A stretch of 64,000 nt of DNA, taken from Absidia repens. Taxonomy: Eukaryota; Mucoromycota; Mucoromycetes; Mucorales; Cunninghamellaceae. The DNA lies in the NCBI GenBank assembly GCA_002105175.1, contig MCGE01000003.1, positions 992,001 through 1,056,000 of the forward strand, given 5' to 3'. The notes beneath the pieces are model-generated. The model saw nothing but the letters and a program-made list of their open reading frames with translations. It did no database searches and had not been told where the DNA came from. This document shows positions 11,850-32,906 of this stretch, one piece after another; position 1 is the first letter of the stretch; the number at the start of each line of letters is the position of its first letter. Both the position numbers and the translations under genes were made by a program.

Positions 11850-12750
11850 GACACGATGGAGCTTTTGTAAATCTTCCGATTTATTGGTTGTCAGTAATTT
11901 TTTATTAAACCGTGGGTTTAAATAGGATGGGATTGGAGACTCCATCATTTTGCACTATTGTGGGTAGCCCCTTGGGGCCCAACCATCGTGCTCAGCGCGT
12001 CGTCAATAGATACTTTTTTAAAAAAAAAAATGGAAGGTCGAAAAATAGGGTGACTGAACCATTCGCACTACGCCTCTCATGGATTCAAATTTTCTCGCCT
12101 TTTTTTTCTTCCTCTTTCTTTCGTTTCTTTTTTTTTTAGAACATCAACTTCAACTGCGGATTTAGTGATCTTGGATTAGAGGTTAGAACTTGAATCAGGG
12201 GCCTTTTTAAAAGTGCAATACAAACATCATGGGGAAACCCTTCCATTTTGGATTCGTGATCTTTGACCGTCCTCAAATTAGTATTCATTTTAGGATAGTG
12301 TCATTAGCTCGACTTTTGACCGTCATCAAATTAGTATTGATTTTAGAATAGTGTCCTTAGCTCAGCTTAGCGTTAGTTATCATAGTTTGTATTGCATCGA
12401 TATCAGAATTAAATATGTCTTGTCTATTTACAATTATTCTCTTTTATGCCTTTCATTGTCTCTCTGAATGGGCATGGCATATGTGCGTGGAAAAACAGAG
12501 TGTGTGTGGGGGGGGGAGGTTTATGCGTCAAAAAAAACCCCCCGGCAGCTCGTTCTGTAAAATGCTACGTACAGTTGCCAAAAAAAAAAAAAAAAACTCC
12601 CCAAGATTGTAACAGCGACATGGATACAGTGATATGAGTGGAGGAAATGGATGGAAAATATTAAGTCAGAGAGGTTTTAGGTGATGTGAGTGGAGAAAAT
12701 GGATGGAAATTTCAAAGTCATAGATGGTTATCTTAGATAAGTAGACACCA
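11850..12750 (+). repeat. Long dispersed repeat, copy 2
   Basis: Second copy of the unit at 1200-2390, with the same order of blocks: GATTTATTGGTTGTCAG, GCGCGTCGTCAATAG plus TACTTTTTT, the pyrimidine tract, the core-repeat block at 12165-12260, a CTGAATGGGCATGG tail and the GGA-rich end. A short internal duplication (CCGTCMTCAAATTAGTATT with flanks) occurs near 12265-12360. No protein coding capacity. Confidence 0.6.
12165..12260 (+). repeat. GGGGAAACCC-core dispersed repeat, copy 5
   Basis: Contains TTAGAACTTGAATCAGGGGC, a TTTTTAAAA near-palindrome, GCAATACAAACATCATGGGG, then AAACCCTTCCATTTTGG. It belongs to the subtype with the ATTTTTAAAAAT hairpin, shared with the copies near 1660 and 42600. 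Confidence 0.65.
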
Positions 12751-15438: not shown

Positions 15439-15759
15439 TGAAATGATTGATATAAATAAAAGACAAGAGTAAAATAAGTGATACAATTGATATGGTTTTT
15501 ATTTAATTGATAAAATGTCAAGTCTTTTTATAATAAAATGAAGATATTTGTGGCTGTGGATGGGAGCATGATAACGGTGTATTTGAGACTACGGATAGTT
15601 GAGGCTGTGTGCTATCTGATGTGTTGAATGACAAGTGTGAGAATAAGTGGGGAATTCAGGGGTAAAAAATAGAGTGAAGAGATAAGTCGGATATACAAAT
15701 GATGATGGCATAGATGCTTTTGATGTAAATATTGCTAAGCAGGAACCAGGAATACGACA
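15439..15759 (-). repeat. 3' LTR of the chromovirus
   Basis: 321 bp, identical to 20714-21034. On the minus strand it runs TGTCGTATTCC to CATTTCA. It contains a TATA-like box (TTATAAAAAG) and AATAAA upstream of the conserved CAATTGTATCACTT block. Confidence 0.93.
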
Positions 15760-15906
15760 TAACCCTCTTCCAGGTTCTTGAGACCGCTTGTTTGAGTTAG
15801 GTATTCATGGTGTATAGAGATGTAGGTTGAAGAAATGAAGGAAGAAAGGAAAAGTAGTATGCATTTTTTTTTTTTTTTTTTTTTCTTTGCGCCTTCTGGC
15901 GGGATT

Positions 15907-16251
15907 TTAATTTCGTCTTTTGTTTGACTTGTATTTTTGGTTTGCATACATTTTTCTTTTCTGTGGCGGCATTTGTTTATTTAGCGCTTCTTCACTTTTT
16001 TTTATGTTTTCTCTATTTTCCCAGTATTTGTCTATAGCATCCTGTGCGTTGATATCCTGTGCTTTTACCCATTGGTTGTGTTCATCTGAATAACCTTCCC
16101 AACGTACCATATATTGACGATGTCTGGGTGTGCCCTTGTGATCTACTATGTCTTTGACTTCGTATACTTCAGCATCGACGTTGCTTTCATCTTGCGAGAT
16201 TGCTTTCAACTCGGATGGTACATAGTTGCGTGTTGTTAGGTCGCCAGCCAT
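15907..16251 (-). CDS. Chromovirus chromodomain segment of Pol
   Basis: 114 codons holding a chromodomain: VYEVKDIVDHKG, then RQYMVRWEGYSDEHNQWV with the aromatic cage residues, then DAIDKYW. In chromoviruses this domain follows integrase and can bind histone marks to steer insertion. Its frame differs from that of the integrase. Upstream of its first Met the frame reads GNYLLKDMAGDL, the usual integrase-tail motif, so it should be part of one Pol polyprotein. Confidence 0.85.
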   Translation of the reverse strand: MAGDLTTRNYVPSELKAISQDESNVDAEVYEVKDIVDHKGTPRHRQYMVRWEGYSDEHNQWVKAQDINAQDAIDKYWENRENIKKSEEALNKQMPPQKRKMYANQKYKSNKRRN

Positions 16252-16256
16252 GTCTT

Positions 16257-17264
16257 TTAGAAGGTAATTACCTTGTGTTGTTTTTGCATGACTTCATATG
16301 GACCGTCATATACGGGTGCTAATTTATTTGCTCTTGTAGGTAACTTTGCCACGACGTAACTGCCGATCGGAAAGTCTACGATTCTATGCGTTCTGTCAAA
16401 GACGTCCTTTTGATTCTGTACAGCGTTATCAGTCTTTTCTCGAATGGCTGGAAATACTATATTGGCCATGTAGTCGAGGCGTTCTATTAACTCATCGTAT
16501 GTCATTGGTCTTTTGATGGTGTTATCGGCGTTGTCTTTTGTAAGTACATATGGCGTGGTCATGTGTCTGGCAAACATGAGTGTGAAGGGTGGTGTTTGAA
16601 GGCGTGGTGAAACCTTGTGGTTTATAGCTAACTGTACATTTGGTACGTACCAATCCCAATCTTTTCTAGTGCCTTGTTTTTCTTTGTTTAACAACTGTTT
16701 GGCTGTTTGTACGTATCTTTCAGCAAGTCCATTGCCTCTTGGATGATATGGTGTGGAAAATCGACGATCAATTCCCATGGCTTTATGCAACTTTTCGAAG
16801 AAATGATTTTTGAATTCGGTACCATTATCCGATTGTACGATGCTAGGGTAGCCAAAGTCACCGAATACCTGGATGAGTGTATGTATGATGGTGTCAGATT
16901 TTTTATCAGGTAATGCTCTGAGTATGACGAAGCGTGTGCAAACATCTACCATGACTAACAGATATGTATTTCCTTTTAGTGAAACTGTAAAGGGTCCTGT
17001 TAAGTCGATTGACCAATGTTCACCTGGTAAGTAGGCGTATATTGGACGAAGTGGATTGTATCCTTTCTTTGCGATGTTGTATTGCTGGCAAGCGGTACAT
17101 TGTTGGACGATTTCTAATGCTTCTTTCTTTAGGTTTGTCCAACTCAATCCTTCATTGTGTGCTGCCTTTACGATAGCTTCTGCTCCGAAGTGTCCAAATT
17201 TGTGTATTCTTTGTAGGATCGACTTCTGTTCTTCAAGTGGAGGTGTGAAATAGTCATCCATCAT
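16257..17264 (-). CDS. Chromovirus integrase
   Basis: 335 codons. The zinc-binding HHCC domain shows HKFGHFGAEAIVKAAH and CTACQ. The catalytic core shows the first Asp in IDLTGPF, the second in VQSDNGTEFKNHF and the Glu in GNGLAERYVQ, so the DDE triad is complete. Upstream codons in the same frame continue to about 17340. The end runs out of frame at an A-rich stretch (CAAAAACAACA) just before the chromodomain. It inserts retroelement DNA into chromosomes. Confidence 0.9.
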   Translation of the reverse strand: MMDDYFTPPLEEQKSILQRIHKFGHFGAEAIVKAAHNEGLSWTNLKKEALEIVQQCTACQQYNIAKKGYNPLRPIYAYLPGEHWSIDLTGPFTVSLKGNTYLLVMVDVCTRFVILRALPDKKSDTIIHTLIQVFGDFGYPSIVQSDNGTEFKNHFFEKLHKAMGIDRRFSTPYHPRGNGLAERYVQTAKQLLNKEKQGTRKDWDWYVPNVQLAINHKVSPRLQTPPFTLMFARHMTTPYVLTKDNADNTIKRPMTYDELIERLDYMANIVFPAIREKTDNAVQNQKDVFDRTHRIVDFPIGSYVVAKLPTRANKLAPVYDGPYEVMQKQHKVITF

Positions 17265-17341
17265 TGACTGTATAGCGCGAATGTGGTGATTCGATCTGAC
17301 TACGCTATGTGGAACTCTTTGGTTGCTGGAACCGTTGGACG

Positions 17342-18712
17342 TTACCCTTGATGTATTATTTTTATTTTTGTATTGCGGTGCAAGCTTACCCCCGGGATCT
17401 CTTTGAACGGTGTTGCCAGACGTGAAAGGAGATCAGGAAAGATATTCAAGTCGCCAGGCTTATGGATGATGGTGAACGAATAGTCCAGAATGGTATCCAG
17501 CCAGTTGATCATCATTGGCGAAGCTTGTTTTTGGGTATGAATGTAAGTAAGTGCACGATGGTCCGTGTAGAGTGTGAATGGAGTGCCCCATAGATATTTA
17601 TGGAATTTTTTTAGGGCGAAAACGATTGCTAATAATTCCCTTTTATTTGTGCTGTAGTTACGTTCCGATGGCGACAGTGATCGTGCCATGTATCCGAGGA
17701 AACGTTCCTTGCCGTCAATGATTTGGTATAAGGCAGCACCTATTCCGTAATTGGATGCATCTGTGGCAACGTAGAATGGTTGGTCTGGATCAGGGAAGTG
17801 CAAAAGTGTATTACTTTGTAATTGTTGTTTAATCATGTGGAAATGTTTATCATGAACTGATGTCCATTCTTTTTCTGTGATAGCGTCAGCATAGCGCAAA
17901 GCATCCAATGGTGCGGTCAAGGCAGCGACATTAGGAAGATGGCTACGGAAATAGTTGACAATACCAAGAAATTGCTGAACACCTTTACCAGATGTCGGAC
18001 GTTGCCATTCCAATACATTGCAGACCTTTCTGGGATCAAGATCATAGCCTTTATCAGACACGCAAAAACCAAGTAGATATACTGCAGTTTGTGCCCAATG
18101 GCATTTCTTTGGATTCAAGATTAGGTTGGCTTCTGTTAACCGTTCTATGGCTGTGCAGACATGTGCGATGTGCGACTTCATATCTGGGGAATAGACGACG
18201 ACATCATCAACAAATGTATGGATAAACGGTAAATGCTTGAAAATAGTATTCATGACTCGTTGAAATTTTGCTGATAATGGTTTTAGACCGAAGGGTGCTC
18301 CTTGGAACATGTATTGACGTCCTCTATGTGTGAAGGTTGTCTTATGTTGGTCATCTGGATGAATTTTAAAACGATGGAATGCACTTTTCAAGTCCAATGT
18401 GGTGAACACGGTGGCGCCATGCATACCTTCGAAGATATCTTTGATTAAAGGTAAAGGAAAAATATCATCTTTTAGATGTTTATTGATGTGGCGTGGGTCG
18501 AGACAGGGTCGATAGCCAGATACTAATCCTTTTTCGTCTTTCTTAGGTGCCAAAGTCAATGGACTATTCCATGTGGTATTGACTGGGGCTTCAACGACTG
18601 TGCCATCCTTCAACCATTGTGCAACAGCTTCATCCACTAACGGCTGCATCTTTATAGCGATAGGATATTGTCGATGATTTGTACGCTCTGTAGTCAAAGT
18701 AGGTGTATCCAA
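17342..18712 (-). CDS. Chromovirus reverse transcriptase and RNase H
   Basis: 456 codons shown; the frame is open a little further upstream to the Gag-protease overlap. The RT shows TTLDLKSAFHRFKIHPDDQ, GAPFGLKPLSAKFQ and the active-site VDD in HTFVDDVVVYSPD. The RNase H shows VATDASNYGIGAAL, NKRELLAIVFALKKF and YTDHRALTYI. The frame is -1 relative to Gag-protease, with the overlap at a CTCTTTTTG run. The frame changes again at an A-rich run (about 17350-17375) before integrase. Confidence 0.9.
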   Translation of the reverse strand: MDTPTLTTERTNHRQYPIAIKMQPLVDEAVAQWLKDGTVVEAPVNTTWNSPLTLAPKKDEKGLVSGYRPCLDPRHINKHLKDDIFPLPLIKDIFEGMHGATVFTTLDLKSAFHRFKIHPDDQHKTTFTHRGRQYMFQGAPFGLKPLSAKFQRVMNTIFKHLPFIHTFVDDVVVYSPDMKSHIAHVCTAIERLTEANLILNPKKCHWAQTAVYLLGFCVSDKGYDLDPRKVCNVLEWQRPTSGKGVQQFLGIVNYFRSHLPNVAALTAPLDALRYADAITEKEWTSVHDKHFHMIKQQLQSNTLLHFPDPDQPFYVATDASNYGIGAALYQIIDGKERFLGYMARSLSPSERNYSTNKRELLAIVFALKKFHKYLWGTPFTLYTDHRALTYIHTQKQASPMMINWLDTILDYSFTIIHKPGDLNIFPDLLSRLATPFKEIPGVSLHRNTKIKIIHQG

Positions 18713-18729
18713 TCTGATGATGGATTCTT

Positions 18730-20649
18730 CTAGTGGACAAAAAGAGGTAATTGGAATCTGTGATTTTTTTCTGTGTATGGTTTAATCAGCTGTAGGAAGT
18801 TTTCTCTTTCCTGTAGGGTACCAGCCGGTGAATCATTAGGAACAGGTGGATTATCAACATGGTGATTTTCTTTTGGTGTATGCAAATCATGATTTGGCCA
18901 AGTGTGTGGCAAGTTACTGATCATCACTCCGAATTTGTCAAGCAAGTCATTACCGATATAGCAATCAAGTCCATCAGCAAGATCTAGTACTTCGAAGGAA
19001 TGTGATCTAGATACATTGTTGAATTCAATTTGGACAGGATGTGTTTTGCCGTAACTTAGTATAGTGTTATTTTTTCCAACTAGATGTAGAGTAGTTTTAG
19101 GGATAGAATCATGATTTGTTTTATTAAATAAAATATTATTGTTTTTCAAAAAATCTATGCTAATCACTGATATATCTGCGCCGGTGTCTAGTAGAGCCAT
19201 GGCTTGTTTACTCTGTAGCAAAAGAGGAAAAACAAAATTTGTATTAGATGATTGTGTGATTGCATTGATGTATTTTTTAGGTGTGTTACCTGTCATAGAG
19301 TCATCGTGGGCTTGCACTCGTATGGCTTCCATAGATTCATTGAGATCCATGAGAGCAGAGTCAGCAGGATGGTTGGTCAGAGGCAAACGGAGAGAACGAA
19401 CAAAAGGTTTCCTTGCCAGTTTGGCTTGCTTCGCGGGGCATTCCTTGTCATGTTGCGGGGACCAAGTGACGTTCTTGCAATGATAGCAAGGGTTGCGTAT
19501 GGTGTTGGCAGAGGAAGGGAAGGAAGAGGAAGCAGAAGAAGAGGAGGAAGCAGAAGAAGAGGAAGCAGTAGAGAAACCGGTACGACGGTTGTTGTTGCTG
19601 TTGTTGGTTTTCAATTGGCGGCATTCGGCAGACGAATGGTTAGAGCCAGAGCCGTGATGGCTGCAGTATAGGTTTTTGTTGTGCCGTCCCGAAGAGTTCT
19701 TTTTCTTGTGGGGGACCACATCATCATCACCATCATCACCGAAGGAGCGCTTTTGGCGGCTGACCTTGTTAGCAATCTTCAAAACTTCAGATGCTGTAGC
19801 AGGAAGATCACCAGGGGAAGAGTTTCCGTGGAAGGAGCCAAGCACATTGCCTTGAAGGACACGAGGAAGAGCACGGAGACACAGCATGGCACTGGTTTTG
19901 TCATCGGACCATTGAGCTTCATGGGCAAGATTCTTGAATCGCAATCCAAAGTCGGCTACAGATTCCTTGGGATTCATGGTGACAGAGAAGAAGTCCAAAG
20001 TGCTGGTAATAAGACGATCCTTGACGCTGAATGCATCTTCCAGAATGGTTTTCGCTTCAGACCAGGTACCATTAAATGACTTGAGTTGGCCAGAGAACCA
20101 GATGTCCACGTCTTCACCAGCCATGGCGTAGGACAAGTAAGATTTCCAATGGATGTTGAGGTCCAACTTGTAAAGATCCATCACCTTTTCAAACTTGCGT
20201 ATAAAAGAGGCCACAGAGTCAAAGACGATGAGGTTGTGGTTCACCTTGGCATGAGAGGGCAATTGGAAGATAGGGATTGAATTGAGAATGCGGGGATTCA
20301 CGGCTTCTTGATCCAAATTGACAAAATGTTTCTCCAAGGTCTTGATCTTGTCGGCATATAAATCCAGCTTGGTTTTGGTTTGGTTGTATGCAGGGTCATC
20401 AAAATCCATGAAGGTGAAAAAGATGGACAATTCCTTGGCTTCGGAGCGGAGTTCTACCAACTTCTGCTGAAGACTGGGCTTGGGGGCATGTTTGGAATCG
20501 GCAGAAGAAGTCATGACCATGTCTTCATCGTGAAGGTCGGTGAGAGCAGGAGCAGAGGAAGGAGCAGCAGGGGAGGACGAGACAGCAGCAACACCTTGAA
20601 GAATAGCTTCACCTTCGAGAGCAGAGACAAATTCATTGAGATTAGACAT
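18730..20649 (-). CDS. Chromovirus Gag and aspartic protease
   Basis: 639 codons. The N-terminal half is a Gag/capsid region with the usual helical pattern (SFIRKFEKVMDLY, then W-rich IHWKSYLS). Two Cys/His clusters follow; the second (CYHCKNVTWSPQHDKEC) is a CCHC knuckle with longer spacing than usual. The protease shows ALLDTGADISVIS. The Met at 20649 lies 65 bases inside the 5' LTR edge, so the leader is very short. Ser- and Asn-rich linkers join the parts. The ORF ends LPLFVH-stop where the RT frame has already opened, so a -1 ribosomal shift or a mutation must join them. Confidence 0.9.
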   Translation of the reverse strand: MSNLNEFVSALEGEAILQGVAAVSSSPAAPSSAPALTDLHDEDMVMTSSADSKHAPKPSLQQKLVELRSEAKELSIFFTFMDFDDPAYNQTKTKLDLYADKIKTLEKHFVNLDQEAVNPRILNSIPIFQLPSHAKVNHNLIVFDSVASFIRKFEKVMDLYKLDLNIHWKSYLSYAMAGEDVDIWFSGQLKSFNGTWSEAKTILEDAFSVKDRLITSTLDFFSVTMNPKESVADFGLRFKNLAHEAQWSDDKTSAMLCLRALPRVLQGNVLGSFHGNSSPGDLPATASEVLKIANKVSRQKRSFGDDGDDDVVPHKKKNSSGRHNKNLYCSHHGSGSNHSSAECRQLKTNNSNNNRRTGFSTASSSSASSSSSASSSFPSSANTIRNPCYHCKNVTWSPQHDKECPAKQAKLARKPFVRSLRLPLTNHPADSALMDLNESMEAIRVQAHDDSMTGNTPKKYINAITQSSNTNFVFPLLLQSKQAMALLDTGADISVISIDFLKNNNILFNKTNHDSIPKTTLHLVGKNNTILSYGKTHPVQIEFNNVSRSHSFEVLDLADGLDCYIGNDLLDKFGVMISNLPHTWPNHDLHTPKENHHVDNPPVPNDSPAGTLQERENFLQLIKPYTEKNHRFQLPLFVH

Positions 20650-20696
20650 GATACAGAGAGAAAAAATAAATAAATCGGAGTTTGGATAAAAAATGA

Positions 20697-20708
20697 GTAT
20701 TCACTTAA
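20697..20708 (-). promoter_or_regulatory. Possible self-priming primer-binding site
   Basis: Just inside the 5' LTR, where a tRNA-complementary TGG site is normally found, none is seen. Instead the minus strand reads TTAAGTGAATAC, which can pair with GTATCACTTA inside the LTR (10 bp with one bulged A). Tf1-type elements prime from their own 5' mRNA end in this way. Inference only. Confidence 0.35.
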
Positions 20709-20713
20709 AAAAA

Positions 20714-21034
20714 TGAAATGATTGATATAAATAAAAGACAAGAGTAAAATAAGTGATACAATTGATATGGTTTTTATTTAATTGATAAAATGTCAAGTCT
20801 TTTTATAATAAAATGAAGATATTTGTGGCTGTGGATGGGAGCATGATAACGGTGTATTTGAGACTACGGATAGTTGAGGCTGTGTGCTATCTGATGTGTT
20901 GAATGACAAGTGTGAGAATAAGTGGGGAATTCAGGGGTAAAAAATAGAGTGAAGAGATAAGTCGGATATACAAATGATGATGGCATAGATGCTTTTGATG
21001 TAAATATTGCTAAGCAGGAACCAGGAATACGACA
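20714..21034 (-). repeat. 5' LTR of the chromovirus
   Basis: 321 bp, identical to 15439-15759. It is followed outside by the target duplication TAAGT at 21035-21039. Confidence 0.93.
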
Positions 21035-25315: not shown

Positions 25316-25601
25316 TCTAAATTTGGAAGGTCATCAATATTGAACATCAAAGTACGGCAACAATAACAGTACTTTCAACTCTAGTCCTATTTTATTTTTA
25401 AGCATTTGTAGCTACAATCGGATGAACTTCATCCTAAAAGTTCTGGTGCTCACTCTATAAAAAATAAAAACCTACAAAAACAATTTCCAGTTACGACCTG
25501 ATAACCAAAATTAGCCGTAACAACATAAAACCCTGCAAAAAACAACTCAACTTACGATTCAGTAACAAAAATGAAGTGTAACAGATGCCAAAAGACCACA
25601 A

Positions 25602-25673
25602 GGCTTTGCCGAGACTCGAACTCGGATAATGAGATTCAGAGTCTCATATGCTGACCATTACATCACAAAGCCG
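25602..25673 (-). tRNA. tRNA-Gln (anticodon CUG)
   Basis: 72 nt. Acceptor strands GGCTTTG and CAAAGCC pair perfectly. The D-arm is ATGTAATGGTCAGCAT (A box). The anticodon stem TGAGA/TCTCA carries loop CTCTGAA, giving CUG (plus-strand 25638-25640). The T-arm is CCGAGTTCGAGTCTCGG (B box). No intron. A TTTT terminator follows about 8 nt downstream on the minus strand (near 25591). The 5' end faces the retroelement stack that begins about 10 bp away. Confidence 0.93.
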
Positions 25674-25682
25674 TTTGGGCGC

Positions 25683-26041
25683 TATGAGAATCAAAACTGG
25701 ATTATATGTTTTTGGTACAATCCAGGTCACACGAGGGCAAGCGACCTCTCCGACCAATGATATGGCTCCATTCTCCGACCAATAATATGGCTCCTTTCCC
25801 CACCTCCCCCTTCACCCACACAAATGTCAAAAGCGGATAGTGAATCAACATGACTTTATTTTATTTTTATTTTATTGTATTTTAAATTTCTAATCGTAAT
25901 AATCTACTGTAAATCTAATCTAAATCCTATTGTCGGGATTCATTCTATCTAATTGTATAAATACTAAGTCTATTTTTCATAAATAAAAACCGTGCCTTTC
26001 TTTCAGTCATTTTTCCTTGTCCCCAAAAATTTATCCTATCA
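25683..26041 (+). repeat. Solo LTR a, first in the stack by the tRNA gene
   Basis: About 359 bp, from TATGAGAATC to ATCCTATCA, followed by GCGC (26042-26045). It shares blocks with the other LTRs of the stack: GGGCAAGCGACCTCTCC, an AATAAAAAC poly(A) signal and CAGTCATTTTT near the end. The left junction lies within about 10 bp of the tRNA 5' end in a GC-rich GGGC-type sequence; whether it is exactly GCGC needs a base-level check. Confidence 0.6.
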
Positions 26042-26045
26042 GCGC

Positions 26046-26761
26046 TGACAAGTTGGGAAGTGATCTATATTTGGCGGGCAGTCGGGAATTCAATACCATT
26101 CGGCCGTGTATATTGGACGGTGATTGGCTCTCTACCGATAGACTGCTGGTTTTGAAATTTATTTATTTTGGGCGCGAACCTTTTATTTTTTTTTATTTCT
26201 TTTCCTTTTCCCCTTTCTCTTCCCACCTTTTCCCATTCATTCATTTTAGACATCGTCTCAGTTCCCTTTACTTTTATTTTATTCTCCTTTCTCTCTCTCT
26301 CTCCCATTATTATTACGTTGTTTCAGTTCCCTTGTTTTTTCTCTTTAGTTTAGAACCCCCCATTTATTCATTCATTCTTTTTTTATTTTTATTTTATTGA
26401 TCTTGACTCTGGATTGTGATTCTGAACTCTTTTTCTCTTTTTACTTCTGTCGCCGACAAAGTATTATCTTTAACACTCTCATATAGTCATAGTTTTAGGT
26501 ATATTAGAATCTATTTTTGACTTTGAAATAAAGAACAACTCTTTCTCCTCTCTTATTTTTTTTATTATCTTGCTTTACTTTTGTTGGTGTTTCTCCTCTT
26601 CTCTTATTATTTCATATCTATTCACTCTTGATACGGAATACTAGCCTATATTGATAGAATAATTACTAGATTGAACATCAGAAAAGTAAGCTATTCAGTG
26701 CTGTATTGATAAAGGACCTTCTATACATCAATTATTAATAAAAGCAATTCCAAACGTCTCA
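26046..26761 (+). repeat. Solo LTR b, or two stacked LTR remnants
   Basis: 716 bp between two GCGC junctions (26042-26045 and 26762-26765), starting TGACAAG and ending GTCTCA. It is pyrimidine-rich with AATAAA signals near 26526 and 26737, like its neighbours. An inner CAGTGCTG at about 26697 may be a mutated GCGC junction, so it could be two elements. Confidence 0.55.
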
Positions 26762-26765
26762 GCGC

Positions 26766-27076
26766 TGTGAGATCGGACGGTGGTTATCGCAAGAAATGAC
26801 CGACCTTCCCTCTCCCGGGTATGATTATGCAGGCGACCTCCTCACTGTTATTTTTTTATCGGACTTCAAATTCCCTTTTTCTTTCTTTTTTTTTTAGCTT
26901 CTCCCCCATTTTTATTTTTACTTTCTTTTGTACATTGTTGAACAACCATAGATGTTACTACCATTAGTTTTGTACATCCTTAGTTTATATATATTACGTA
27001 CTTTTGAAAATGAATAAAAACCTTTCTTCTCTTAAAAAAATCTTTTTGCCCCATTTTACAAATTATTTTACTGTCA
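26766..27076 (+). repeat. Solo LTR of family 1
   Basis: 311 bp, TGTGAGATCGG to TTTTACTGTCA, flanked by GCGC on both sides (26762-26765 and 27077-27080). Nearly the same sequence as the LTRs of the next element over most of its length, diverging in the last 50 bases. Confidence 0.8.
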
Positions 27077-27080
27077 GCGC

Positions 27081-28120
27081 TGTGAGATCGGACGGTGGTT
27101 ATCGCAAGAAATGACCGACCTTCCCTCTCACGGGTATGATTATGCAGGCGACCTCCTCACTGTTATTTTTTTTATCGGACTTCAATTCCCCTTTTTCTTT
27201 CTTTTTTTTTTTTGTTTATTTTTTTTTTAGCTTCTCCCCCATTTTTATTTTTACTTTCTTTTGTACATTGTTGAACAACTATAGATGTTACTACCATTAG
27301 TTTTGTACATCCTTAGTTTATATATATTACGTACTTTTGAAAATGAATAAAAACCTTTATCTTTTTCTCTTTCAGTCAAAAACTGCCTTACCCATTTTTT
27401 ACCTCTGACATTTATTGGTGAGACTACCAGGGGATTCGTTTTATTGTATAGCACTTATCACAACACTCTATTTTTATCATGATGAACGAAAAACTTTTTG
27501 GCGAACCTTCCAACTTCAACGGCGGCAAGAAGGATAATGCTCTGTCTTAGTTGAGGACAATGAACCGTATCCGAAAGGGTGCAACATTGGACGATGAACA
27601 AGCACTCTTGGTGGCAGGCTCACACCTACGTGGCTCGGCTGAACAATGGTGGGCGATCTATGAAGATTCGGTCGAAACGTGGGACAAGTTCCAGCTCATG
27701 TTCAAGCAAAAGTATGTTGGCTGAACAAGGAAAATAAGGACAAGGATGCTGACTGCGACTTATCTGTGGTGATTCGGTCTGGTCGGAGGGAATTGTGAGA
27801 TCGGACGGTGGTTATCGCAAGAAATGACCGACCTTCCCTCTCACGGGTATGATCATGCAGGCGACCTCCTCACTGTTATTTTTTTATCGGACTTCAATTC
27901 CCCTTTTTCTTTCTTTTTTTTTTGTTTATTTTTTTTTTTAGCTTCTCCCTCATTTTTATTTTTACTTTCTTTTGTACATTGTTGAACAACTATAGATGTT
28001 ACTACCATTAGTTTTGTACATCCTTAGTTTATATATATTACGTACTTTTGAAAATGAATAAAAACCTTTATCTTTTCTCTTTCAGTCAAAAACTGCCTTA
28101 CCCATTTTTTACCTCTGACA
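27081..28120 (+). mobile_element. Miniature LTR element A (1.04 kb) with a Gag remnant
   Basis: 5' LTR 27081-27410, a primer-binding site starting TGGTGAGACTACC (27416), about 380 bp internal, a purine tract GGTCGGAGGGAAT, and 3' LTR 27794-28120. GCGC flanks both ends (27077-27080 and 28121-28124). The LTRs differ at only a few positions. There is no protease, RT or integrase, so it must depend on enzymes from a relative; element B has the same primer site and a similar purine tract. Confidence 0.85.
27479..27724 (+). pseudogene. Gag remnant in element A
   Basis: Begins MMNEKLFGEPSNFNGGKK, is broken by TAG at 27548-27550, then continues in frame with a capsid-like segment (LLVAGSHLRGSAEQWWAIY, then WDKFQLMFKQKY) to a TGA at 27722. 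It matches the retrotransposon Gag capsid pattern. Too short and interrupted to work. Confidence 0.7.
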
Positions 28121-28745
28121 GCGCTGTGAGCTTGCGACCTGGTACTTGTGCCTTTTGACCCCCTCAAGACATTGAATTGCCAAGCGGCCTCTCCCCCAAT
28201 CAAATTTAGTTATTATTTGAAACTCCTCCCCGCATTGCCTCTTTTTTTTATTTTTATTTACCCCACACGCTCTTCCTCTTTTTTTCTCTTCCCTTTATTC
28301 ATTTCCATTTCACTCACTCTCTTCATCTCATTCTTATTCTTTTACTTTCCCCTTCCTTTTTATTATTTTGCTTTAATGGACTGTAGTCTACTTTTATTTT
28401 TAGTTTATTGTTTTGTACATTGTTGAACCAACCTTAGATTAGCTGACATTAGTATTTTGTGTCCCCTTACTAGAATAGCTTTTAAGGAAGACAAACTTCA
28501 ATTCAATAAACAATATCTTCTTCTACTCAGTCATTTTTGCCCCTACCCATTTTTTTTACTGTCATTTATTGGTGAGACTACCAGGGGCTTTCCAATTTGA
28601 ACATTATCATTCTTTATTTACTTACTATGATCAATGCAATCGACGCTGCCCGTTTTTTGGGTGAACCAACGAACTTCTCTGGAAGTGGCTCAACCAAGGA
28701 TTCGGGTCTAGGTCGGGTGCGGGATGCCTCTCACGAAAAATTTCC

Positions 28746-30005
28746 TTAAAAGGCAATAGGGTCCCCATCCGATCGAAACCTTTCCGACTCACTTGGCAGG
28801 AAGAACAAGAACTCCAGGCAGAAATCGACAAGTTGCTAGAAATGGGTCTCATACGTCCGTCCAAGGGTCTTTGGTCAAGTCCGGTGTTTTTTGTGAAGAA
28901 GCGCGACGGTGGTTTGCGGATGGTTGTGGATTACCGAAAACTGAATCAACTGACTATCAAGGATAGCTTCTCCTTACCTCACATTGACGATCTTTTGGAT
29001 TCTTTTGGTGGTGCCAAGGTATTTTCGACTCTGGACGCAGCTAGCGGGTTTTGGCAAATTCCCATGAATCAATCTTCCATTGAAAAAACTGGTTTTGTGA
29101 CGAAACGTGGGACATATGAATTTCTGACGATGCCTTTTGGACTTATGTGTGCACCATCTACTTTCCAACGGACAATGACTTCACTCCTTCAAGGGTACAT
29201 TGGTGTATTTGTATATGTTTTTATTGACGACATTATTATTTTTTCGGCTGACATGGATGAACACAAACGGCATTTGGCTCTGGTTTTCAAGGCTTGTGAT
29301 GAAGCAAATCTTCGGTTGAAGGAATCGAAATGTCATTTTGGTCGCTTTTCTGTGGAATACCTTGGACATGTAGTACACGGTGATGGTTTGGCTCCCTGTC
29401 AACGAAACGTGGAAAAGATTTTGGAAATGCATTACCCTGAAGATGTTGCTGATATTTGGTCTTTCCTTGGTACCGCTGGATACTATCGACGTTTTATTGC
29501 TGATTTTGCTGCTGTCGCTTCTCCTCTCACGAAACTCCTACGATCTGATGTCCCATTTGTTTTTGATGAACGATGTATGGCCGCTGTGGAACGTCTCAAG
29601 GTTGCTTTGGTTTCTCCCTCATTACTTGCTTACCCTGACCGCGATCAAATCCAAGTGATGACCACTGATGCATCCGCATGTGGCTTAGGTGCAATCCTTT
29701 CCCAACATCCTGTCAGCGACCCCTCAAAAGAAACGGTGATAGCTTATGCAAGTCGAACTGTCCATGGTGCGGAAGAACGGTATGCTGCTACTCATCTTGA
29801 AGCTCTTGCAATTGTGTGGTCCGTGGATCATTTCCGACATTACTTGGTTGGCCGAAAATTTGAACTACGAACTGATCATGCCGCTCTGGTGTATATCTTC
29901 CAACCCAACACCCAAGTTGCAAAGGTGGGCTGCCTCTCTTATGGAATACGATTACGATATCATATACAAGAAAGGGAAAGACAACCCGGCCGACTCCTTA
30001 TCTAG
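28746..30005 (+). pseudogene. Element B reverse transcriptase and RNase H
   Basis: The RT is largely intact: LIRPSKGLWSSPVFFVKKRDG, FSTLDAASGFWQIPM, LTMPFGLMCAPSTFQ and the catalytic FIDDIIIFS. The RNase H has TTDASACGLGAIL and HLEALAIVW, then shifts frame near 29890; the neighbouring frame supplies YDIIYKKGKDNPADSLSRL. Gag and protease are deleted upstream, so no working polyprotein is possible. Confidence 0.85.
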
Positions 30006-30051
30006 GTTACTCTGAACTTTGATCTGTGTCTTTCTGGTAGATTATACTAGT

Positions 30052-30346
30052 TGAAATAAACGCAAAGGTAAATAAGTGATACAATTGGTTACTCTTTTTA
30101 TTTAATATTCAAACATGTCATATTTATATCTTTTTCTATAGCTAAGTGAGTCATAGTGAAATGGTTACAAATTGGGATAATCTGAAGTGATGTTGGGGAA
30201 GTAATTTAGCGGGTGATGAAGTATGAATAAAATAAGGTATAGGGTAGTACCTGTCAAAATGTCAAAGTGAAAGAAATGTGGAGCGGGGTATAAATAAATA
30301 AAGATGTGGAAGATGGGAAATAGGTTTGGGTATCACAAATACAACA
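30052..30346. repeat. Solo LTR, second family, nested in element B
   Basis: 295 bp, TGAAATAAACGC to AATACAACA, with target duplication CTAGT at 30047-30051 and 30347-30351. Sister of 22878-23185. Its presence shows a later insertion into element B. Confidence 0.9.
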
Positions 30347-30780
30347 CTAGTGTTACTTTATTTTCTTTTATTTATTTTATTTTATTTTTTATTTTCGGCG
30401 CCTTATTTTTTTTTTGTTTTTGGGACCTATTTATTTTTTTATTTTTTTATCCCATATTTTACTTTTTTTGATCTGGATTATTTTTTTATTCATTATCTAT
30501 TTTTTTTTTTTTATCTTTTGAACATTTTTTTTTATCTCTCTCAACTTTTATCTTTTTGTCCTCATCCTTTTTCTGGAATCTCTTTTGTTGAATAAAAAGT
30601 TTTCATTACTTTTTGGCTCAGCACTTTATTGGAAATAATACACAAAAGGAGGAAGCCCCATCTCTTCTTGGGCTACTATCTTTTGTGACGGACCCCCTGA
30701 GCGTTCTCTATTAGCAGTTGGTGTGGTTGCTAGACAGCTCATTCCCCGTCTGGCGGTAATGGACTATCCTACTTACTGTA
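30347..30780. other. T-rich tract inside element B
   Basis: T/A/C-rich sequence with AATAAAAAG near 30590 and GGCTCAGCACTT at about 30616, which resembles a degraded LTR with a mutated GCGC junction. No coding signal. Confidence 0.4.
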
Positions 30781-30787
30781 TGTTGCG

Positions 30788-31449
30788 GTGTATCAGTATG
30801 TGTCGAATGGATCCTACCCCCGAGATTCAACCAAGCCTGTGAAACGGCGGATACGAAGGATGGGCGTGAAGTACTTCGCTCATGAAGGAAGGCTGTATTC
30901 AAGAGTATACAATCATGGTGGATTTGATTTGGAACTAGTACACGAAGGAAATATTGAAGACGTCATTGAACGGGTACACAGTGAAGGCCATTTGGGTGCG
31001 AAGAATACTTATAATAGCTTACGACGACGATACACGGGCCCCGCTCTGTGGAACAAGGCGTGGACGTAGTACGTAGAGGTGCAACTTGTAAATTCCGATC
31101 AAGAAGGCCGAATCGTCGGGTGGAAGCGGGAAGACCGATCAAGGTGCCAAGAGATCCGTTTTTTATGATTGGATGTGATGCTGTTGGTCCTGTGGTGGTT
31201 TCCAAATCGAAAAATCGCGACATATTGGTGGCTGTGGATTACTTGACAAAGTGGCCGGTGATGAAAGCCGTACCCAACATTAACGAAGCAACAACAGCGG
31301 ATTTTCTCTATAACGAGGTGGTGGTGAACTATGGTGTGCCTAACTTCATATCAACTGGATCGAACTTTACTTCTGGGTGTGTCCGTCACTTCCTGCAATT
31401 ACTGATGTGCGTGTGTCCCGTGCTGGTGAACTCCTCAATGCTTGGATAG
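30788..31449 (+). pseudogene. Element B integrase remnant
   Basis: A zinc-binding integrase segment (RVHSEGHLGAKNTYNSLRRR) is followed, after a frame shift near 31050, by a core fragment with the first catalytic Asp region (GCDAVGPVVVSKSKNRD, VAVDYLTKWPV). The second Asp site reads ISTGSNFTSG, so its Asp is lost. The reading frame then falls apart; no Glu site was found. Confidence 0.8.
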
Positions 31450-32023
31450 GTCGTCTTGGTGGCTAAGGAAGTGGATAAGGTATCTGAATGTTGGACAGTT
31501 GTGAACAAGTCTCTGGATGAATGGAAGCAGGTATGATGTCAAAATAAAAATGGTGTATCGGTCTGGTTGGGGGGAATTGTGAGCTTGCGACCTGGTACTT
31601 GTGCTTTTTGACCCCCTCAAGACATTGAATTGGCAGGCGACCTCTCCCCCAATCAAATTTAGTTATTATTTGAAACCCCTCCCCGCATTACCTCTTTTTT
31701 TTATTTTTATTTACCTCACACGCTCTTTCTCTTTTTTTCTCTTCCCTTTATTCATTTCCATTTCACTCACTCTCTTCATCTCATTCTTATTCTTTTACTT
31801 TCCCCTTCCTTTTTTATTATTTTGCTTTAATGGACTGTAGTCTCTTATTATTTTTAGTTTATTGTTTTGTACATTGTTGAACCAACCTTAGATTAGCTGA
31901 CATTAGTATTTGTGTCTCCTCACTAGAATAGCTTTTGAGGAAGACAAACTTCAATTCAATAAACGATATTTTCTTCTCCTCAGTCATTTTTGTCCCTACC
32001 CATTTTTTATTTACTGTCAGCGC

Positions 32024-32531
32024 TTTGTTGCCGAAAAGTATACTTTGAAGTAAACGCAGGACGGAGTTTGAGAGCAAACTTTCTCCACTCGGACTGTGGA
32101 TTTATTTTGTTTTACTCAACGTCTTCATTCCCTTTTTATTTTATTTTATTTTATTTTATTTTATTTCTCTCTCTCTCTTCACCTAAATTTACTTCTTTTA
32201 TTATTATATTTATTCTCATTCATCGTCACGCCCCATCGCCACTACCAATATTTCTTTCTTTTAGCATCGCTAATAGTTTGACATCCGTTTATTAGTTTGC
32301 ATCCCTTTAGCTGAAACACTATCACTAATGTTTTGTTGTGCCTTCCCTCATTGGTTTACCTTCTCTCATTAGTTACCTTCCAACACTAGTTTATTCTCCC
32401 TCATTAGTTTTACCTTCCTTCTTATTTATATCTGAAATTCTCGTGTCAATAAAAATCTTGTATTTTGCTATTAGTATATTTTGTCCCAAAAACCCTTCCT
32501 TTTTTTTTTTTTTTTTTTTTTTTACATATCA
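32024..32531 (+). repeat. Solo LTR c, last in the stack
   Basis: 508 bp between GCGC at 32020-32023 and GCGC at 32532-32535. It begins TTTGTTGCCG (the first TG is altered) and ends ACATATCA. Pyrimidine-rich middle and AATAAAAATC near the end, as in the other stack LTRs. Confidence 0.65.
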
Positions 32532-32596
32532 GCGCTGTTTTTTAAATTACATGTATAATCTGTATTTGCAAGTGCCGCGCATTGCGGGAAACTGTT

Positions 32597-32906
32597 TGAA
32601 ATGGATGTGAAAATAAAAAGACAAGAGTAAAATAAACGATACAATTGATATGGTTTTTTATTTAATTGATAAAATGTCAAGTCTTTTTATAATACAATGA
32701 AGATATTTGTGGCTGTGGATGGGAGCATGATAACGATATATTTGAGACTACGGATAATTGAGGGTGTGTGCTATCTGATGTGTTGAATGACAAGTGGGGA
32801 ATTCAGGGGTAAAAAATAGAGTGAAGAGATAGGTCGGATATACAAATGATGATGGTGTAGATGCTTTTGATGTAAATATTGCTAATCAGGAACCAGGAAT
32901 ACGACA
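32597..32906. repeat. Solo LTR of the chromovirus family
   Basis: 310 bp, a diverged copy of the 321-bp LTRs at 15439 and 20714, in the same orientation along the window. Perfect 5-bp duplication CTGTT at 32592-32596 and 32907-32911. It lies 57 bp beyond the last GCGC junction. Confidence 0.92.

Follow-up and report, generated by a model that had tools for sequence, protein, structure and literature searches.

The question raised by this locus is why one and the same 4-base sequence should stand at every boundary of a row of different long terminal repeat (LTR) retroelements. In a 64-kb stretch of the Absidia repens genome (contig MCGE01000003.1, positions 992,001 to 1,056,000; hereafter the window), six LTR units from five LTR families, all on the + strand, lie next to a tRNA-Gln(ctg) gene and have GCGC at each boundary. 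Our analysis makes it very probable that several Ty3/Gypsy-type families integrate repeatedly about 10 bp upstream of tRNA genes, duplicating the local 4 bp. GCGC is merely the sequence 7-10 bp upstream of tRNA-Gln(ctg), and what these families have in common is that they lie at a set distance from tRNA genes. The position and orientation of the elements, the 4-bp duplication, the 4-mers private to individual tRNA genes and the contrast with a control LTR family can be read directly from the DNA. Six bases separate the tRNA-Gln(ctg) gene from the first GCGC; the units then run outward with GCGC after each.

25601-25672, - strand: tRNA-Gln(ctg) gene, the target (ARAGORN)
25679-25682: GCGC, tRNA-proximal copy of the target duplication, at -7 to -10 from the mature tRNA 5' base
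25683-26041, + strand: solo LTR, family A, with irregular left end TATGAG
26042-26045: GCGC junction between LTR A and LTR B
26046-26761, + strand: solo LTR, family B, 716 bp
26762-26765: GCGC junction between LTR B and LTR C
26766-27076, + strand: solo LTR, family C
27077-27080: GCGC junction between LTR C and mini-element C
27081-28120, + strand: mini-element C, with LTRs at 27081-27410 and 27794-28120, primer-binding site (PBS) from 27416 and a capsid-like fragment at 27551-27721
28121-28124: GCGC junction between mini-element C and element D
28125-32019, + strand: element D, a degenerate Ty3/Gypsy element, with LTRs at 28125-28564 and 31578-32019 and PBS from 28570
28833-30002 and about 30734-31446, + strand: inner parts of element D, namely reverse transcriptase (RT)-RNaseH and broken integrase remnants, respectively
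32020-32023: GCGC junction between element D and LTR E
32024-32531, + strand: solo LTR, family E, with left end TTTGTT
32532-32535: GCGC, distal copy of the duplication
32536-32596: distal flank beyond the outermost GCGC

The six GCGC copies reported in a first-pass annotation of this DNA (at 26042, 26762, 27077, 28121, 32020 and 32532) are all present, and a seventh, at 25679-25682, is to be added to its list. Because GCGC occurs 70 times in the window, or about once per 914 bases, seven copies at successive unit boundaries are not a chance finding. Comparison of the 5' and 3' LTRs of mini-element C and element D fixed the LTR ends as TG...CA and the spacing between units as exactly four bases; GCGC is the 4-bp target duplication that the annotation took it for. 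Its description of the units as equally oriented, with mostly TG...CA ends, was also accurate, the exceptions being the left ends of LTR A (TATGAG) and LTR E (TTTGTT). The left end of LTR A carries two extra bases relative to two other copies, which start TGAGAATC; copies at C38:20791 and C11:747542 match LTR A from base 3 through its end. The sequence CAGCGCTG occurs six times in the window, five of them within the stack. Intervals 1412-1435 and 11975-11998 hold a similar stretch of about 20 bases, both ending CGTGCTCAGCGC, and the sole CAGCGCTG outside the stack comes from the first of these.

Junction 4-mers and tRNA genes

We searched the 47.4-Mb assembly of this Mucorales fungus and took a census of tRNA genes, consisting of the best 63 of 1766 candidates, picked by tRNA score only. 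An LTR match was found in the first 420 bp upstream of 17 of these 63 genes. Its orientation was identical in all 17, with the 5' LTR end toward the tRNA, and the implied LTR start fell at base 10-12 in 15 of them, while the other two gave no usable start. The LTR library was made up of families from tRNA-linked stacks; its representative of family K came from a census gene, whose own match is trivial, and a second tRNA bears the same family-K LTR. Relatives of LTR E adjoin tRNA-Glu, tRNA-Arg and tRNA-Gly genes. As the annotation had proposed, successive elements chose the same site, and they belong to several families.

At other tRNA genes, copies of A, B, C and D and relatives of E are flanked by 4-mers other than GCGC. 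The annotation's rule of GCGC for five LTR types thus fell; it had asked whether copies elsewhere bear unrelated duplications, and they do, so that a sequence-specific reading fails, whereas the same-site reading survives and is explained by the local tRNA gene. The repeated 4-mer of a stack is TGGT at a tRNA-Thr gene, TGTT at a tRNA-Ile, GTGT and then TGTG at a tRNA-Phe, GATT and TAAA at two tRNA-Val genes, and TGAT, TGAA and others elsewhere. Inside stacks the duplicated 4-mer sometimes slips by one base, from GTGT to TGTG (locus L045, tRNA-Phe) and from GAAT to TGAA (L053, tRNA-Arg).

Two junction tests bear on this pattern. Among 50 junctions in 17 groups, collected with a pattern that admits exact 4-base spacing only and start motifs chosen by the analyst, the 4-mers were identical in 44/89 within-group pairs and in 16/1136 between-group pairs; label permutation gave a mean of 4.3 and a maximum of 13 within-group identities in 5000 trials. 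Grouping over 12 kb put two tRNA genes into one group and let through a few spurious single junctions; either fault counts against the within-group result. In the second test, the junction 4-mer was present just 5' of its own tRNA in 35 of 39 assigned junctions, compared with 27/507 for other tRNAs (14 tRNA genes; permutation mean 4.4, maximum 28 in 20000). The 39 comprise 38 of the 50 pattern junctions and the distal GCGC of the tRNA-Gln stack. A further test, for recurrence of 'CA + 4-mer + T' at 46 tRNA genes, was set aside as weak: 19 tRNAs were matched (permutation mean 14.5, maximum 23), with 36 matches in total (mean 19.9, maximum 33), the weakness arising because many tRNA genes lack an LTR and the offset can differ by one base.

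In two cases the 4-mer of a stack served as a prediction, since it had been read while the tRNA gene was yet to be found. The TGAT stack (four junctions) was traced to a tRNA-Ala gene with TGAT beside the LTR and an extra TGAT junction in between, and the TGAA stack (five of six junctions, one more later) to a tRNA-Ile gene with TGAA beside the LTR. The most distant TGAA junction is about 15 kb away from this tRNA-Ile, and 1558.0-1562.2 kb of the contig lies outside the trace. Tracing the C67 stack (GTTA/GTTT) reached no tRNA gene.

The TGAAAT...ACA LTRs, named in the annotation as a control family that should have varying 5-bp duplications, behaved as predicted. Apart from the full element described below, 21 copies were compared, 20 of them taken from 54 match rows and the other from the window; 17 have an exact 5-bp duplication, with 16 distinct ones since two loci share flanks. 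No tRNA gene was found in 20 short stretches around control-family copies. The full element of this family in the window (15439-21034) has 321-bp LTRs, identical over the 300 nt reported, and TAAGT on both sides; it looks recent and, as far as tested, without a tRNA link. It is a Ty3/Gypsy element of another family, with gag, RT and integrase open reading frames (ORFs) on the - strand. At least 40 control-family-like copies were scored in the genome, and more are likely. A solo LTR of the family, with duplication CTGTT, lies at 32597 to about 32920, directly past the stack.

These data also bear on other origins of the stack. Elements would likewise pile up if an existing LTR end or junction, and not the tRNA gene, guided integration, and their exact abutment, as well as some copies with no tRNA within the 1.5 kb examined, would fit such guidance. 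However, LTRs beside tRNA genes begin at equal distance (15/17), and where the duplication slips by one base (GTGT to TGTG, GAAT to TGAA) it follows the tRNA flank, which leaves LTR-end guidance very unlikely. Still less likely is tandem amplification, or LTR-LTR recombination, of a single unit. The stack is head-to-tail in one orientation and two adjoining units both belong to family C (solo LTR C and the neighbouring mini-element C LTR match at 92% over 278 columns), but its six units represent five unlike LTR families of different lengths, with matches at different places in the genome; we therefore reject this origin for the whole stack, in agreement with the annotation, although solo LTRs within it may be products of LTR recombination. 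Practically no chance is left for integrases that prefer GCGC and copy their preferred site with each insertion: GCGC stands at all seven stack boundaries, but other 4-mers flank copies of A, B, C and D and relatives of E elsewhere and the 4-mer tracks the tRNA gene, not the LTR family, so that the other-locus flanks and both junction tests refute such a preference.

Stack elements, probable order of insertion and proposed guide

The stack elements can be assigned to Ty3/Gypsy (Metaviridae) on the order of pol domains, the LTRs, the PBS and the target duplication. In element D, Pfam places RVT_1 first, then RT_RNaseH, with Integrase_H2C2 downstream; the integrase is broken but its zinc-binding part is still recognisable, and the ORF at 31018-31446 had no Pfam match. 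The closest solved RT is that of Ty3 (4ol8, E 1.7e-74). In the best 120 of 1036 matches to the element D RT, Mucorales proteins are among the best; the top three reach 57-60%, Rhizopus microsporus 58% and Lichtheimia ornata 55%. Mini-element C is probably non-autonomous, and its 57-aa fragment matches Ty3_capsid with E 2.6e-4, weaker than the curated cut-off. The PBS of C and D (27416, 28570) matches tRNA-Arg gene 3' ends: its 12-mer occurs 32 times in the genome, 11 of them at the ends of listed tRNA genes, two of which are typed tRNA-Arg(acg). In a family-B copy at locus L046 a different primer-like sequence (TGGTGCCCTGA) follows the LTR, unlike the tRNA-Arg PBS of C and D. Within element D, about 30050-30340 resembles by eye a control-family LTR and is perhaps a later insertion.

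Such stacks very probably arise as follows. Elements integrate at a nearly fixed spot, about 10 bp away from the mature tRNA 5' end on its upstream side, with the 5' LTR toward the tRNA, and the 4-bp stagger duplicates whichever sequence occupies that spot. Each later insertion at the same distance from the same gene re-duplicates that 4-mer and shifts older ones outward, so that the units line up head to tail and every tRNA gene has a 4-mer of its own. The guide for the integrase may be the RNA polymerase III (Pol III) initiation complex (TFIIIB), as with yeast Ty3, and the same base would be struck repeatedly because the guide is the tRNA gene itself. The geometry is of the Ty3 kind, with a 4-bp stagger.

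The newest element should then sit nearest the tRNA. The LTR pair of the nearer element, mini-element C, has 2 mismatches and 4 gaps in 329 columns, compared with 18 mismatches and 3 gaps in 442 columns for the farther element D. This difference is as expected if new copies arrive beside the tRNA. On the far side of the stack, the first ~53 bases of the distal flank had no repeat match, and the strongest other matches start at base 54-62 of the 765-base query (scores cover 40 of the 224 candidates and leave common words aside). This flank is possibly the original upstream DNA of tRNA-Gln, displaced by 6.85 kb. A host ORF with Peptidase_C54 (ATG4-like) is also present in the window.

Several observations weigh against the interpretation that elements integrate repeatedly at one set distance from a tRNA gene. 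Irregular junctions lie outside the pattern, with three-base spacing at L046, L050 and L055 and ATAA after LTR A in L041. In the own-tRNA test, 12 of the 50 junctions were omitted: six of the TGAA stack and two of C67, whose tRNA was then undiscovered, one of C41, for which no tRNA was in hand, and three that looked spurious. Each junction was assigned to whichever known tRNA lay closest on the correct side, with intervening DNA partly covered; the weakest assignments are three GTTT junctions on C10, which lie up to 18 kb away and whose 4-mer is common beside tRNA-Thr genes. Four of the 39 junction 4-mers (GGTT, TGAC, TTCT and CCTG) differ from their own tRNA flank, and one of the seven TGAA-stack junctions deviates (TGAC). 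No LTR was found in ~300 bp upstream of 4 U6 genes (5 listed) and 2 5S genes (12 listed), which lends no support to the idea that other Pol III genes are targeted. The age order comes from a single pair of elements, C and D, and TFIIIB contact is invisible in DNA; guidance by TFIIIB is what we infer from the sequence pattern.

A TATA-like box upstream of tRNA genes and in LTR ends

tRNA upstreams without a detected LTR have a TATA-like box at a fixed place, matching at least 7 of 8 positions in 23 of 30 strict cases, with a median start at -28. When 77 upstreams were split by eye according to LTR presence, a box matching 7 or all 8 positions was found at -25 to -32 in 33/43 without an LTR (77%) and 20/34 with one (59%), and four other places gave 0-9%. 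Such a box is present in 4/4 U6 genes examined, at -23 to -35, and is therefore probably a Pol III promoter element of Absidia repens. Scored as a native promoter, the distal flank of the tRNA-Gln stack gave a weak -4.6, equalled by 23% of off-register windows.

Insertion at -10 would displace the host box. Six of 12 LTR families have a box with 7 or more of the 8 positions matched at LTR base 18-19, which comes to stand at -28/-29 after insertion. In the matrix scoring, six of the 12 (F, G, H, Lf, M and K) fell below p 0.05 against shuffles, with a combined p of 7e-11 over the 12 families. The matrix was built from 30 strict upstreams (without TG at bases 9-13), because an earlier set of 36 'no-LTR' upstreams, which had placed 9 of 15 LTR variants below 0.05, might include old LTRs; the signal persisted. 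Since 10 of the 12 family representatives are copies not adjoining a tRNA, the box belongs to the LTR family.

It is thus conceivable that the LTR 5' ends of many families are evolved mimics of the host Pol III upstream promoter, which renew the landing site. Insertion between TATA box and start would disable the tRNA gene, and an LTR box at -28 would keep it active; in several families the LTR 5' end would supply a TATA-like box in place of the host box and restore both promoter and landing site, as TFIIIB would bind again. If true, mimicry would explain the fixed orientation and serial stacking, and why the guide survives every insertion, and it would be a way to target tRNA genes whose activity requires a TATA box on their upstream side.

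The competing possibility, which concerns mimicry only, is that the element uses the box close to its LTR start as a promoter for RNA polymerase II (Pol II), and that this box matches the tRNA box position by coincidence. LTRs require a promoter, and Pol II may use the LTR box. The five families of the window fall short of significance as mimics (p 0.76, 0.23, 0.11, 0.10 and 0.12), the combined p is optimistic as families may be related, and the control-family 5' LTR end is also near the shuffle threshold (p 0.043-0.199, six distinct starts). These points count against mimicry. Coincidence would, however, have to account for the box at base 18-19, and so at -28/-29, in 6 of 12 families when the host median is -28, and for the combined p value. 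The control starts score far lower (-1 to -5, with no more than 6 of 8 matched, at base 23-27, and no box at base 18-19) than families F, G, H, Lf and K (+2.9 to +9.9). The opposite LTR end of the control family, with eight distinct starts all at p above 0.08, does not serve as a control, since the ORFs on the - strand show that it is not the 5' end. We give the Pol II explanation nearly an even chance. Mimicry we hold tentatively, a little under even rather than at it, because the control-family 5' end is less clean.

Comparison with known tRNA-gene-targeting elements

In the open-licence full texts searched, with passages of PMC5911963, PMC7175516, PMC7928374 and PMC10085805 among them, no description was found of stacks at one site in which each tRNA gene has a duplication of its own, or of LTR ends replacing a tRNA TATA box. 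The present data show that a single tRNA gene can be struck by different retroelement families at one base repeatedly and can thus preserve an ordered record of insertions. For annotation, a 4-mer recurring at LTR junctions can signal position specificity and not sequence specificity.

In Saccharomyces cerevisiae, Ty3 integrase docks on TFIIIB and inserts the element a few bp from where Pol III starts, in the interval that begins at the TATA region, with a 5-bp duplication (PMC8632968); its distance upstream from the mature tRNA is ~15 bp (PMC5006619). Like Ty3, the Absidia repens elements insert just upstream of tRNA genes, and the RT of element D is closest to that of Ty3 among solved RTs. 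Unlike Ty3, they have a duplication of 4 bp and a distance of ~10 bp; their LTRs lie in one orientation in 17/17 census cases. With regard to the features that mark Pol III-targeted Ty3-type elements, integration falls within about 20 bp upstream of tRNA genes, whereas the duplication is one of 4 bp, not 5 bp, in C, D and other stacks. Other marks of that group are insertion at 5S and U6 genes and an integrase whose C-terminal domain and chromodomain dock on TFIIIB.

A dictyostelid Ty3/Gypsy element, DGLT-A, is found 13-16 bp upstream of tRNA genes (PMC5006619), likewise a short way upstream but farther than the ~10 bp seen here. In the same order as Absidia repens, Ty3/Gypsy-like LTR elements of Rhizopus oryzae are said to be found often together with tRNA genes (PMC2699053).

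Insertions of Tj1 in Schizosaccharomyces japonicus lie 5-11 bp from the mature tRNA on its upstream side, always oriented the same way (PMC4600332), and the Absidia repens elements share both the short upstream distance and the fixed orientation. Tj1, however, runs in the same direction as the Pol III gene, whereas the Absidia repens LTRs run opposite to it (17/17); the latter are also set apart by the 4-bp duplication and, in C and D, a PBS that fits tRNA-Arg(ACG). The Tj1 study considered that insertion between an upstream TATA box and the tRNA start very likely disrupts the promoter (PMC4600332). Absidia repens tRNA genes mostly have a TATA-like box and yet are targeted there, and the boxes that several LTR families carry at the required place would be a testable answer to this concern.

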